Assembly (NCBI GenBank): GCA_018902385.1
Contig: JABSSW010000060.1
Span: forward strand, 1 to 64,000
Source: Physcia stellaris
Taxonomy: Eukaryota > Ascomycota > Lecanoromycetes > Caliciales > Physciaceae
Reading direction: 5' to 3'
DNA: 64,000 nucleotides
Below the pieces are notes generated by a model. The model was not told the origin of the DNA and searched no databases. It saw only the letters and a list, made by a program, of their open reading frames with translations. Positions within the stretch are counted from its first letter, which is position 1. Every line of letters begins with the position of its first letter. Positions 1-5,655 of the stretch are shown piece by piece. The position numbers were made by a program, and so were the translations under genes.

Positions 1-1188
1 GTATTTTGCGAAAAAAAACAGAAAACAATTATTGATCGATGAAAAAAAATTTATCAAAATAATCACTATTTTATGAATATTGAAAACGCGTCAACGATAT
101 TTACATAATAAATGATGAATATCATGACGAAAAACATTTCGAAATTCAAAAATCTAATAAAAATTATGTGATTCATGAATCATTCGAATATTTTGTGAAT
201 ATTCCCGATCAAACAAACAAAAATTTATTCATGCAAACGTTATCGATCGAAATTTTTATTTTAATAACAAATTTTCAGTGACATTTGCGTTCGTGTCCAG
301 AACAATTTCGATTAAATTTGACACGTCGTCGACGAAAAATGCTCATAATTATCGGCATTTATTATACAGTCAAATGTCAGAAATCGATACACGATTAGTT
401 TCGAATTTCGTTCGTGACGTTACGTAAATGAAAACAAATATAAAACAATTTTTCATTGATATGTGCGTCGATATCGAAATGCGTCGTCGTTAATCGATCG
501 TAAATTTTTAATGCAAAAATATTTGATTATCGAAATTCATGCGCGACAAATTATGAAATTTTCAAAATTCGCGACATTGAAAACGTCGTTGTAATCGACG
601 AATCATATTTCATTAATTTTTCGAATTTTCCGAAATTTCGATTAATGACGAAAATGCGATCGTCACGTTCATTCGACAGATTTACATAATGAAAAATTGA
701 AAACAAAATTTTTTTGACAATAATATATTGAATTCAAAACGAATGAATATAAATGTAAACAAACAAATTGTTATCATCGAAAATTGCAAAAACATTAAGA
801 TACAATTGATATTATCAATGCAAATTCACAAATCAAACGCGTGATTCGTGTCGACGAAACTATTAAAATATCAATTAAATCAATTTTTACGATTTTTTCA
901 AATTACGTGAAAAGAATAATTTATTTGTTGAACGCGACTTTATGTTCACGTTTTCGCGAATTGAACGTTTAAATCAAAATGAAAACGTATTTTTTCATAT
1001 CATTGATGCACATACAGAAATAATTGAACGAACAACGTCAATTTTGAAAATGTTTACATTTTCAAAAATACGCGTTTGAAATTCGTACAAAAATACGAAA
1101 AAAAAAATGTTATTTAATTAATTCGAAATACGCTCATTTAATTGTTAATGTTTATAAATTTGCTTTTAAAAATTGATTCAAACAAACA

Positions 1189-1560
1189 TTGAAATTCGAT
1201 GTTTCGATCATGACAATTGACGCGATTATAACGACTAATTATGAAAATTTGCACGATGCGATCGCGATTAATTTCGTCGTTTCAAATTTGATCAATTTTT
1301 CAATCAATTTTGCAAGCAATTTTAACAATTTTATCGTGTCAAATGTTAATATTAATGCGAAAAAAATATTGTTTGTTGAAATTATCGTTTACGATGACGT
1401 TAACGTTCGAATTAAGTTTGCAAACGTTGCGTTGAACTATTCAAAATTGTGAAACGACAATGAGTTTACGATGAAAATTTCGAAAAATGAATGAATGTCA
1501 ATCGAATTGAAATTTGACGTCAAAATCGAAACAACAAAAATGTATTCGCTTAATTTCGCA
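1189..1560 (+). pseudogene. Retroelement linker upstream of reverse transcriptase
   Basis: This open stretch (87 codons then a TGA at 1450-1452, then open again) fits the region just before the reverse transcriptase in fungal gypsy polyproteins, including a VYDD-like motif followed by a short acidic stretch. The TGA lies where the family usually has tryptophan. It is in the same orientation as the downstream domains. The assignment rests on position and weak similarity, so it is less certain than the domains that follow. Confidence 0.45.
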
Positions 1561-1699
1561 AACAAAAGTTTGTAAACGAAATTTTGACAAGTTACATGCA
1601 CAAAATCGCATGAAATATATCAATCAATTCATTTCGCATGATTATTTTGTTTTCGCGATATGAAAAACAATATTTGAATCAAATGATTTAAAACGCAAA

Positions 1700-2270
1700 A
1701 ATCGAATCGTTGTCGACATACGCGAATTAAACAAAATCATCATCATCGATTTTTATTCAATGTTTTGTTAATTTGACATTATTGCAATCGTCGTCGAATG
1801 CAAATTCATTTTCGTTTTCGACGCGACGAATTTTTTTCATCAATGATTGATAAAATTTGCAAACAAACATAAATTTATCGTCGTTTCACATAAAAAACAA
1901 AAACAATTTAACGTCGCAATGATGAAATTCAAAAATTTTTCGTCATACGTACAACGACGAATCGATTTTATTTTTCGAAATTTTCGCGAATTTGTTCGCG
2001 TTTACGTAAATGATATTGTTGTTTTTTTCAATATTTTTGAAAAATATATCGTTCATTTACATTCGATATTCGAACGATTGAATATTTATGAAATTAATTT
2101 GTCGTCGAAGAAATCGTTTTCGACTATTTTACGATCGCGTTTTTGATCAAAAAATTGACGTTTTGATTTCATTATCGCAATCGATAAATTGAAAACAATA
2201 ATCAAATTGAATTTTTTTATATTTTCAAAAATTTGAAAATTTATTTAAATTTTACAAAATAATTACGAAA
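1700..2270 (+). pseudogene. Reverse transcriptase remnant (Ty3/gypsy)
   Basis: One reading frame, broken by a few stops, carries the reverse transcriptase landmarks in order: a D-I-R-x-L-N segment near 1710, F-x-x-Q just before a TGA at 1844-1846, the F-N-V-A-M segment, and the catalytic box read here as YVNDIVVF around 2010-2035 (the family has Y-V-D-D, so one catalytic Asp is changed). Stops are nearly all TGA at places where tryptophan is usual. The enzyme cannot be functional. Confidence 0.85.
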
Positions 2271-2272
2271 CT

Positions 2273-2665
2273 TTGTCGCGTTTTATGTTCAAAAACGAAC
2301 GCGTTACAACGTCGCAAAATTTTATTTTTACGATAATCGTTTTCAACAAAAACATCGTTCGCAAAATTTATTCGCAAAAAATCGTAATGAACAATTTTTC
2401 AATTGAAAAATTAAAATCATATCGATTATTGCAAAAAACTTTTAACAAAATTTCATTTTTGATACATTTCAATTTCGATCGACAATTGTATATCGACATT
2501 GACGCGTTTAAACGACGCGAATTCGACGCGATAATTTATCGTTTCAAAACAAACAATAATTCAAACAAATTCAAACGTAACGACATCGAATTCATTTTAT
2601 TTTTTAAATCGAATGTTGAACGAAATCGAAATCAAATATTGATTTATCGAATTCGAAATGTGTGA
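2273..2665 (+). pseudogene. RNase H domain remnant of the retroelement
   Basis: A 130-codon open frame carries the RNase H entry motif of gypsy elements, read as LYIDIDAFKRREFDAIIY, near 2487-2540, preceded by an F-L-I-H-F segment. The first acidic residue of the active site (D in the D-I-D-A block) is retained. It continues the polyprotein order after the reverse transcriptase and is followed by frame-broken sequence toward the integrase. It is part of the same dead element. Confidence 0.8.
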
Positions 2666-3098: not shown

Positions 3099-4340
3099 AT
3101 GATCGAAATGTTAAAATCGCTGACGATTCGAATGCAAAAAAAAAAACAAAAATTGTCGATTCGAAATTTTCAAATCTCATCGTCGTTCGAAAACAACGTA
3201 ACGAAACGAAACGTCAATGAACAAAAAAATGACGATACGAAATTTATATCAAGAAAATTCAAAACAAAAATCAATTTCACGTTGAATACGAATGACATTA
3301 TATATCATGTTGACATTGACACGCGTCGATCGTGTATATTTGTTGTTGTGAAACGCGAAATATTTCGTTTAATTCACGATACGAATCAACATTCAAAAAT
3401 TTATCGATGTTATAACAAAATTTTCAATACGTTATACATATTTCGATTCTCGCGAAAAATTAAAAAATACATCGAACATTGTTTTATTTGTCAATTGACA
3501 CAAATCAAACGTCATCGATCGTACGAAAAATTTATGTTTATTACATTCGTTTCGCGTTCGTTTCATATTATTGTCATTGATTTCATTTTAATTATGTTCG
3601 ACGAAATGAACATTGTTATGTTCGCAATATGCAAACATTTTCGTCGAATTTTATTGATTTTCGACAAAAATATTTATGAAACGAAAAAATGAATCAACGC
3701 ATTATTGAACAAATTATTAATCGTCGATTGAAAAGTGTTTGAAATTATAATTTTCGATCGCGATTCAAAATTCATGTCGAATTTTTGACAAATGTTTTTC
3801 ATCAAATTAAACACGCGATTGTTGATTTCAATGACATATCATTCGCAAACGAATGACTCGTCAAAACGAATCAATCAAATTGTTGAAATTGTTATCAAAT
3901 ATTTCGTCATCGAATTTTCGAACATTGATTACATTTTAATTTTCTTTGCAATTCAAATTCAATTAAACAATACGTTTAACATCGTTACAAATTTATCACT
4001 CAATGAAATCATATACGAATTCAAAATCAAAAACGCGATATCAAATTTAATCGCATTCAACACAACAAAAATACAAAATTTGTTAATTTAACGCATGAAA
4101 TATCAACGAAAAATTGTCGATGTCACGAATTTTGCGATTGTCAAAATCAAAATATATTATGATTCGCGTCATATTTTTATTCGACTAAAACAAAATGAAA
4201 AAATCTATTTACAATTCAACAAAAATTACAAGTTGTTTGACAAATCAAATTCGAAATTATTTCAACAACGTTGCGAATTATTTCGAATTTTTGAACGTAT
4301 CGAACGTTTCGCGTACAAATTGAAATTGTCATCAACATGA
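3099..4340 (+). pseudogene. Integrase remnant of the retroelement
   Basis: Three successive open segments cover the integrase. The first (3099-3692) has the second half of the zinc-binding motif (C-F-I-C-Q near 3480) and the start of the catalytic core (I-V-I-D-F near 3570). The second (3792-4091) has the core motif H-S-Q-T-N-D, which corresponds to the conserved H-P-Q-T-D-G, followed by an N-Q segment. The third (4095-4340) matches the basic C-terminal part before the chromodomain, including K-I-Y-Y-D and F-Q-Q-R-C-like segments. Stops separate the segments, so no complete integrase can be made. Confidence 0.8.
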
Positions 4341-4355
4341 CGAATTCATTTCGTC

Positions 4356-4640
4356 GTGTTTATTGCACAATTCGAATCAACATTTGTCGAAATTGATTTT
4401 TACAATCGTTTTCGTTTTCATTATTTTGATTTCATTGAAATCGAAAACGATACGAATCAATACAAATTTTATGAAATTGAAAAATTAATCGAAAAACGAA
4501 CTAAAAAATACAACAAAATTCTCGTAATTCAATATCTAATCAAATGAATCGACTATGAATCGAAATATGACGAATGACGATTCATTTTCGAATTACAAAA
4601 TTTTCAAAATTTCATTGAACAATACGAATTCAATCATTCG
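4356..4640 (+). pseudogene. Chromodomain remnant at the retroelement C-terminus
   Basis: After a proline-poor, H/F-rich linker, the frame reads a chromodomain-like stretch: Y-E-I-E-K-L-I followed by Q-Y-L-I-K, then a TGA at 4545-4547, I-D-Y-E-S-K-Y-D-E, and a second TGA at 4575-4577. In chromodomains both stop positions are conserved tryptophans. A chromodomain at the end of the polyprotein is typical of chromovirus-type gypsy elements, where it guides insertion to heterochromatin. Here it is broken. Confidence 0.75.
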
Positions 4641-4699
4641 CAAAATTTTGATGATCGCAACGACAAACGAAAAACGAAAAAAAAAAAAAATTGATGCAT

Positions 4700-5655
4700 G
4701 ATATGATTACGCATGATAATAAAACATGAAATTCAATAAAAACATTGATTTTTCTTTTTTTTGATTGACAAATTGTTATGACACAAAATCAAATTAAATG
4801 ATATGAATTTAAATTAAATATTTTGACATGACTTTTGACAAAAATTTTGTCGTCATTTCATATTAAATGAATGATGATCAAACAATTGATTCGCAATTAT
4901 TGTACATAAATTGACATTTTGTCGTTCATAATTTCTAAATCAATCAATTCACATATTACGCATAACATTCGTCGATTGCAAAATGATTTTCAAAATTAAT
5001 AAACGAAAATAATCGATTTTTGAAAATATTCAAAACGATTTCGATTTTTCAAAATCATGATACATTGTTGTATGACATATGTTGATTAAATTCAATTTTT
5101 AAATAACGTTTAATGTTTTGATATCGATCGCGATTGAATGATAAATTGTAAAAATTATTTTGAAATCAAAATGATTGAATTGTTGCGTTTGCAACAAAAT
5201 GTTGAATCATGAAAATGCGTATAACAATTCATTGACGTAATTTCATCATAATGAATGCATTTCAATTGATTTTTTTGATATAAATCGTTTGATTGATGTG
5301 ATAAAACAATAAATTGAATATCGATTGCAAAAAAAACAAAAACAATTGAACGAATTTTCAAAACGTTATACAAACGTAATTCAATTAAAATGATCGATAA
5401 ATAAATGTAATAAAAAATGTATAATCAAATTCACGCGTTTGAATAACTTTTTTTTGTTTCAATACAATAAAATGTCGTTTTTTCGATTTCGAAATGAAAA
5501 CATTTGTATCGACGCGTTTTTTTTTTCTTTTTGAACGATGACTAATTCAAATGTTGATTTAACGAATGACATGTTGTTTATATGATGTAATAAATTCGAT
5601 TCAGACGATTCAAACGACGTCGCAATGATTAAAATAGACGTATTATTGATGAAAT
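4700..5655. other. AT-rich flank after the retroelement, no gene
   Basis: This stretch follows the chromodomain and keeps the same base bias, with almost no GpG, ApG, CpC or CpT. It may contain the 3' untranslated end and a long terminal repeat, but no matching left copy was found in the window. Open frames here are accidental products of the low-complexity composition. Ordinary composition starts at about 5656. Confidence 0.6.

Follow-up and report, generated by a model that had tools for sequence, protein, structure and literature searches.

A mutated repeat block at the contig start

The window, meaning the whole 64,000-nucleotide stretch of DNA analyzed here from the lichen-forming fungus Physcia stellaris, opens with a CpY-hypermutated block (1..5655, no strand assigned) in which C before C or T has become T on both strands, as judged from dinucleotide counts compared with shuffles. 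Within it lies the 3′ portion of a decayed LTR retrotransposon of the Ty3/gypsy type (1..4967, + strand), recognized from its genome copies and domains, with the 5′ part lying beyond the contig start. An open stretch at 1847..2146 (+), read by eye, matched 0 Pfam families but carries what we take to be the catalytic box of a reverse transcriptase in which Asn replaces one Asp. Further along are an integrase region with a zinc-binding domain (3093..3692, +; Pfam Integrase_H2C2, E = 7.1e-9, 36.1 bits against a cut-off of 25.5), a weak Tf2-1-like SH3 domain match (4092..4340, +; 24.7 bits, under the cut-off of 30) and a probable long terminal repeat, TGTTATG...CATAACA (4774..4967, +). The latter assignment is based on position, ends and separate occurrences: bases 4772-4967 were recovered from 29 of the 30 copy loci, 28 of which match 182 or more of the 196 bases, and L034 carries them twice. 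When one open stretch of the integrase was searched against proteins, 16 relatives were obtained, of which 13 lacked Gly and 13 lacked Pro, with His, Gln, Arg, Met and Cys present in all 16; Gly and Pro are missing from the query too, which biases this sample. The deficit fits CpC/GpG loss in other genomes, though some relatives may be from P. stellaris, and we do not rely on it.

The retrotransposon is adjoined by a second repeat (4968..5731, no strand assigned), which alignment with four copies showed to be strongly mutated to about 5655 and little mutated over its last ~75 bases, where the window sequence and the other four copies checked all retain GG, AG and CT. Bases 4968-5655 occur at 40 places among the matches listed, and matches to 5301-6300 end at query base 423-435, that is, at about 5731. 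Strong mutation stops near 5655, inside a repeat that reaches ~5731, which slightly blurs the right limit of the block; the unique flank beyond is normal. The left end lies outside the window because the block starts at the first base of the contig, and confinement to repeats was judged at the edges in hand rather than genome-wide. From 6001 onward composition is normal except for one MITE-like repeat with inverted ends near 44.1-44.9 kb (44149..44935, no strand assigned), partly mutated in the same way according to dinucleotide ratios and copies.

An earlier note on this DNA had drawn attention to the block through dinucleotide counts, all of which we reproduced exactly: CpA 24, CpG 25, CpC 0, CpT 1, GpG 0 and ApG 0 in 2281-2580; CpA 24, CpG 10, CpC 0, CpT 2, GpG 0 and ApG 0 in 4801-5100; and TpA 8 against ApT 15 in 2461-2580. 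Over 1-5655 there are 4 CpC, 1 GpG, 34 CpT and 24 ApG, compared with minima of 71 (CC), 64 (GG), 231 (CT) and 250 (AG) in 1,000 mononucleotide shuffles, and observed/expected (o/e) ratios are 1.23 for CpA, 3.72 for CpG and 0.47 for TpA. As the note had anticipated, the usual indices of repeat-induced point mutation (RIP) miss this pattern (product 0.45, substrate 1.34, composite -0.89), because they count loss of CpA/TpG and gain of TpA and so read CpY-type mutation as unaffected. RIP may consequently be underestimated, above all in lichen fungi.

Context of the changes across repeat copies

The retrotransposon had 33 genome matches, of which 30 loci were fetched, 22 of them extending from the first query base to about 4950-5024 or farther. 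All 30 display the same pattern, with 0-4 CpC each and both strands mutated about equally. The last 11 bases of contig C75 equal window positions 5656-5666, so the window copy (L005) and the copy at the end of C75 (L006) are probably the same place, which leaves about 29 independent copies; both were kept in the 30-copy counts. Among 26 long copies, the rate of C/T differences by 3′ base was.98 before C,.87 before T,.14 before A and.10 before G. CpA sites thus vary somewhat more than CpG sites (.14 versus.10, and.20 for CpA before T), and a weak CpA component is possible in this family.

Direction of change could be set in a second Ty3/gypsy family, since it includes unmutated copies. We compared four mutated copies (L041-L044) with one unmutated reference (L039), 39 other matches being listed. 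Pooled over the four, C was changed to T at 878/975 CpC and 704/1110 CpT sites but at only 30/977 CpA and 18/1047 CpG sites. Rates in L041-L044 were.82/.89/.93/.96 for CpC and.46/.51/.74/.81 for CpT, with.02-.04 for CpA and.02 for CpG, and top and bottom strands were alike. C to T accounted for 336/352, 372/392, 451/466 and 473/482 of all differences in the four copies. The pooled chi2 was 2473 for the 3′ base, compared with 4.4 (CpC) and 12.1 (CpT) for the 5′ base and 25.2 (CpC) and 13.3 (CpT) for the +2 base; these values overstate independence because the copies are related. Across the four 5′ bases,.87-.93 of CpC and.56-.70 of CpT sites were changed, and TpCpG was changed at 9/402 sites, indicating no special effect of a 5′ T. 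The CpC:CpT ratio differs between copies, which could reflect two activities. CpT changes showed no consistent clustering along the strand (lag-1 autocorrelation -0.19 to 0.18 in eight copy-strand sets; shuffled s.d. 0.08-0.09).

Other repeats point the same way. The MITE-like repeat in the window has o/e ratios of 0.39 (CC), 0.64 (GG), 0.86 (CT) and 0.57 (AG), compared with 0.89-1.17 in its flanks; copies of this family range in GC from.51 to.30, and in three of them the rates by 3′ base were C.65, T.66, A.07 and G.07. Three further reverse-transcriptase loci also point to CpC/CpT. Stops in 150 scored reverse-transcriptase matches comprised 250 TGA, 33 TAA and 3 TAG, with TAA in 26 of the 150. 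Simulated mutation of one reverse-transcriptase domain yielded only TGA at CpY and only TAA and TAG at CpA, so the observed spectrum is close to the CpY expectation, with the 33 TAA and 3 TAG unaccounted for by CpY alone.

Loss of CpY with CpA and CpG kept, which the earlier note had proposed from the block, is thus general, extending to 30 copies, a second family, reverse-transcriptase stops and a MITE-like family. Its reading of both strands as mutated was borne out in the copies compared, and its 3′-pyrimidine preference emerged again when C to T changes in aligned copies were tabulated by neighbor: the 3′ base decides and the 5′ base matters little. It had named two observations that would speak against this reading, and neither was made: the other repeats examined point to CpC/CpT, not to ordinary CpA-to-TpA change, and less mutated copies do have CpC and CpT (o/e 0.95 and 1.01, respectively, in the unmutated copy L035).

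Candidate mutators and alternative explanations

A search for the genes suggested in the earlier note found three methyltransferase genes in the genome: RID (L003), a divergent second RID-like gene (L001) and a DIM-2-like gene (L002). L003 clusters with RID-like proteins from other lichens; the L001 group (11 rows, SH-aLRT support 94) includes a Heterodermia protein. The tree was a rapid one that used a remote bacterial outgroup, and its long-branch warning names the L001 group and the outgroup, so we are unsure of the exact placement of this group.

We consider it likely that these changes are the product of a RIP-like, repeat-directed defense that targets CpY (CpC over CpT) on both strands and is carried out by a RID/DIM-2-class methyltransferase. 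Cytosines followed by a pyrimidine would be targeted, CpC first and then CpT, with CpA and CpG changing about as little as background. The mutator would be a RID/DIM-2-class cytosine methyltransferase that reads the base 3′ of its target C, acting in bursts on duplicated DNA and probably in the sexual cycle, with specificity set by one of L003, L001 or L002. More tentatively, the RIP pathway of a lichen lineage may have exchanged CpA for CpY as its target owing to the divergent RID paralog (L001 group). If so, the switch would be a natural specificity variant, from which it would follow that both the choice of the base and its mutation are the work of RID-class proteins.

Slow decay, in which silenced repeats are methylated over long periods at CpT and CpC by a DIM-2-like enzyme and 5-methylcytosine deaminates spontaneously without a dedicated mutator, seems improbable as the explanation. 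In the young copy L044, 234/245 CpC sites were changed compared with 13/513 CpA plus CpG sites, and changes other than C to T affected only 9/1997 aligned sites (<1%); this ~100-fold excess is more than 5-methylcytosine decay usually gives. The better target is also CpC, not CpT. A DIM-2-like gene is nevertheless present, and because Neurospora DIM-2 is said in one review to methylate mostly non-CG sites with CpT preferred (PMC13297926), methylation decay could share in the changes.

We regard as still less probable the editing of repeats, for example as single-stranded cDNA, by a cytidine deaminase of the AID/APOBEC or bacterial-toxin type. The restriction to C to T and eight PF00383 deaminase matches in the genome would suit such an enzyme; APOBEC_N and DddA-like profiles found no match, which is no evidence of absence because the controls were likewise unmatched. 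Deaminases of these types, however, read the 5′ base, which matters little here, and the near-equal mutation of both strands and the mutated MITE-like family also argue against this origin. UV-type mutation at dipyrimidines favors C after a pyrimidine and was set aside, since the 5′ base has little effect.

A sequencing or assembly artifact, such as modified cytosines miscalled by nanopore, is very improbable: the assembly is nanopore based, and between the probably overlapping ends of C75 and C60 there are 89 substitutions and 93 gap columns in 5.65 kb, but members of the same family without the mutations read normally, copies differ from each other at CpT sites, the TGA share among stops fits real mutation and the published assembly also drew on 30x Illumina reads (PMC7513301).

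RID catalysis is entered as not detected in vitro in the same review (PMC13297926), and a naturally occurring variant whose target base differs offers a clean test of whether RID itself makes the C to T change.

Comparison with known systems

The pattern shares features with several established systems. Like the RIP-like defense favored here, MIP of Ascobolus is repeat-directed and involves a RID/Masc1-class gene, but it methylates repeats without mutating them, whereas the repeats examined here carry changes in the DNA sequence. RIP, as known from Neurospora and other Pezizomycotina, is matched in C to T change only, on both strands, in confinement to repeats (here at the edges examined), in graded copies and in the presence of RID/Masc1- and DIM-2-class genes. 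In contrast, RIP is described as CpA-directed (PMC12543289, PMC2621366), and its CpA preference and TpA rise are absent here: CpA is spared (30/977) with CpC and CpT lost instead, TpA is low rather than high (o/e 0.47) and RIP indices read unaffected.

The earlier note knew of no described fungal system with this preference. That holds for a CpC/CpT type with CpA spared, of which our searches of open-access literature found none, but not for CpT as a target: CpT-biased C to T change beside CpA has been published for repeats of Magnaporthe oryzae, Botrytis cinerea and Sclerotinia sclerotiorum (PMC4352252, main text). These are likewise ascomycetes with a RID/Masc1 gene, yet CpA is there the first or second signature and CpC is absent from the main text, whereas in P. 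stellaris CpC is hit most and CpA stays at background level. Hypermutation of CpG or TpCpG, known in basidiomycete repeats of Microbotryum, Pucciniomycotina and Rhizoctonia (PMC4014442, PMC5381629), similarly consists of C to T change in repeats in a context other than CpA; it differs in targeting CpG, which is spared here (18/1047), and, in Pucciniomycotina, in its 5′ T, which shows no special effect in the copies analyzed here.

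Composition and layout of the mutated block

Direct counting over positions 1–5655 gave 4 CpC, 1 GpG, 34 CpT and 24 ApG dinucleotides, against minima of 71, 64, 231 and 250, respectively, in 1000 mononucleotide shuffles, and a recount of the dinucleotide figures in the earlier note returned exactly equal numbers. Both CpA (observed/expected (o/e) 1.23) and CpG (3.72) are retained, and TpA is depleted (0.47). The usual indices of repeat-induced point mutation (RIP) do overlook the block, as had been claimed: the values for TpA/ApT (0.45), substrate (1.34) and composite (−0.89) would each be scored as unaffected under the PMC6714961 thresholds. 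A CpY index, defined as (CC+GG+CT+AG)/(TC+GA+TT+AA), is 0.023 in the block versus 0.92 in 6001–64000; outside the block the window has ordinary composition, except for a MITE-like repeat near 44.1–44.9 kb.

Based on its domains, LTR and copies, 1–4967 belongs to a decayed Ty3/gypsy-type element, of which it forms the 3′ part, with an Integrase_H2C2 domain (3093–3692; Pfam E 7.1e-9), a Tf2-1 SH3 match under its cut-off (4092–4340) and a probable LTR with ends TGTTATG/CATAACA (4774–4967), of which a 196-base stretch is present in 29 of 30 copy loci. Adjoining it is a second repeat (4968 to ~5731) found at no fewer than 40 places in the genome. Heavy mutation reaches its limit inside this repeat, at ~5655; GG, AG and CT all persist in the last ~75 bases (5656–5731), both here and in four other aligned copies, and to the right of ~5731 the window is unmutated apart from the MITE-like repeat. 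The little mutation at 5656–5731 in all five aligned copies looks as if the repeat edge were spared and is reminiscent of repeat-edge sparing. The start of the contig (C60; window 1–5666) probably overlaps the end of contig C75 as well, over ~5.7 kb in which the two differ by 89 substitutions and 93 gap columns, and so they are probably neighbours.

Context of the changes in two retroelement families

The window element has 33 genome matches, from which 30 loci (~29 independent copies) were fetched. Each of the 30 holds 0–4 CpC, with o/e values of 0.05 to 0.56 for CpT, 2.4–4.1 for CpG, 1.2–1.4 for CpA and 0.42–0.49 for TpA. Among the 26 copies >3 kb, C/T differences versus conserved C numbered 309 versus 5 before C (.98), 21979 versus 3263 before T (.87), 14766 versus 89140 before A (.14) and 8787 versus 82192 before G (.10), and G/A differences by 5′ base were.99 (G),.88 (A),.13 (T) and.07 (C). 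The 5′ and +2 bases had small effects. Loss of CpC/CpT extends into AT-rich flanks of the copies and is absent from GC-rich ones.

The changes could be polarised in a second Ty3/gypsy-type family, using as query 2 kb from an element that carries an RT and has normal composition (L035/L039); the best 6 of at least 40 matches, itself included, were taken as loci. Four copies (L041, L042, L043 and L044, in that order throughout) were changed at 199/242, 218/244, 229/246 and 234/245 CpC sites, 127/275, 142/276, 209/281 and 226/280 CpT sites, 6/247, 7/247, 8/248 and 9/248 CpA sites, and 4/265, 5/263, 5/265 and 4/265 CpG sites; C-to-T on either strand accounted for 336/352, 372/392, 451/466 and 473/482 of all differences. 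Pooled, the effect of the 3′ base (χ2 2473) dwarfs those of the 5′ base (4.4 within CpC, 12.1 within CpT) and the +2 base (25.2 and 13.3); these χ2 values overstate independence since the four copies share kinship, of which effect size is independent. Together with the G/A tally, this upholds the claim that C is lost before pyrimidines and kept before A and G on both strands.

The possibility that less mutated copies already lack CpC and CpT is answered by the normal composition of L035/L039 and by L040 (96%), which is unmutated (changed CpC.07, CpT.05, CpA.02, CpG.03). All three have open RT frames alongside heavily mutated relatives, so that recent copies have evaded mutation up to now. Because the less mutated copies have lost CpC already and still contain CpT, CpC must be preferred over CpT as a target. 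How far CpC loss outstrips CpT loss is unequal among copies in both families; two activities, or hard sites, could lie behind this. Slow decay without an active mutator is disfavoured by L044, in which 96% of CpC changed versus non-C-to-T changes at 9/1997 sites and 13/513 CpA and CpG combined. This CpC excess, of the order of 100-fold, leads us to favour an active mutator.

Extent of the signature in the genome

Three further RT loci have CpC o/e of 0–0.11 and CpG o/e of 2.4–3.3. The MITE-like repeat (44149–44935; inverted ends, 125 matches), partly mutated at CpC/CpT, has copies ranging from near normal (L050, GC.51) to heavily mutated (L052, GC.30), and its family varies at 14/194 C before A, 44/68 before C, 12/164 before G and 82/125 before T. 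Of 527 candidate RT matches, 150 were scored; their in-frame stops comprised 250 TGA, 33 TAA and 3 TAG, and 10/150 lacked any; when mutation of one intact RT domain was simulated, CpY changes gave TGA only, CpA changes TAA and TAG only, and CpG changes all three. Since these lines agree, the CpY rule holds widely across P. stellaris repeats, and the ordinary CpA-to-TpA pattern considered as an alternative is not what they point to. A weak CpA component may be present as well, given the TAA share and the slightly greater variation at CpA than at CpG among copies of the window element.

The published genome, from an axenic ascospore culture (31x nanopore, 30x Illumina), spans 46.57 Mb in 184 scaffolds, and the available text of its report makes no mention of RIP in this species (PMC7513301); our genome-wide counts cover 43.97 Mb in 147 contigs, so part of that genome is lacking. 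From the published GC of 43.3% (PMC7513301), ~50% in the unmutated part of the window and 26% in the block, a rough estimate is that the process may have touched some quarter of the genome.

Candidate machinery and known systems

The gene types raised earlier as possible sources (rid, dim-2 and deaminase) all have candidates in the genome. PF00145 has four matches in three genes: L003, a long RID-like protein grouping with those of other lichens; L002, which we label DIM-2-like from its length and make-up (DUF7893 plus methylase); and L001, a divergent second RID-like gene whose first exon, the part read, has intact SPPCQSFS, EET and GVPQNRRR motifs, and which falls in a separate tree group (11/55 rows, including a Heterodermia protein) apart from other lichens' RID-like proteins. 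One methyltransferase gene encodes a protein with a 99% match to P. stellaris G7Y79_00005g016670. PF00383 deaminase has eight matches. Target choice depends on the 3′ neighbour in DNMT-class enzymes and on the 5′ neighbour in those of AID/APOBEC type; in the mutated repeats of this genome it is the 3′ base that matters. In a biased sample of 16 integrase ORFs from other assemblies, 13/16 lack Gly and 13/16 lack Pro, with His, Gln and Arg present, and so the CpC/CpT signature may occur in related fungi too.

RIP is described as CpA-directed (PMC12543289; PMC2621366). CpT-to-TpT changes are reported in Tad1 and Stagonospora repeats, the latter doubted as RIP (PMC2621366); of two B. cinerea strains, one resembles M. 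oryzae in having CpT predominant and CpA secondary, and the other resembles S. sclerotiorum in having the opposite order, with CpC absent from the main text of that study (PMC4352252). Other types are CpG or TpCpG in Rhizoctonia and Microbotryum (PMC4014442; PMC5381629) and CpA with double mutations in Monilinia (PMC8959702). In the lichen Cladonia rangiformis, RIP was inferred by GC content (peak near 16%), and the word 'dinucleotide' is absent from the available text (PMC12542154). The earlier note knew of no fungal system with this preference: among the papers listed by our searches of the open-access literature we found no CpC/CpT type sparing CpA, but CpT-biased mutation beside CpA is published (PMC4352252). 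The process in P. stellaris is genuinely RIP-like, with CpY as its target; it works as RIP does but is not directed at CpA, and is therefore a variant rather than a plain member.
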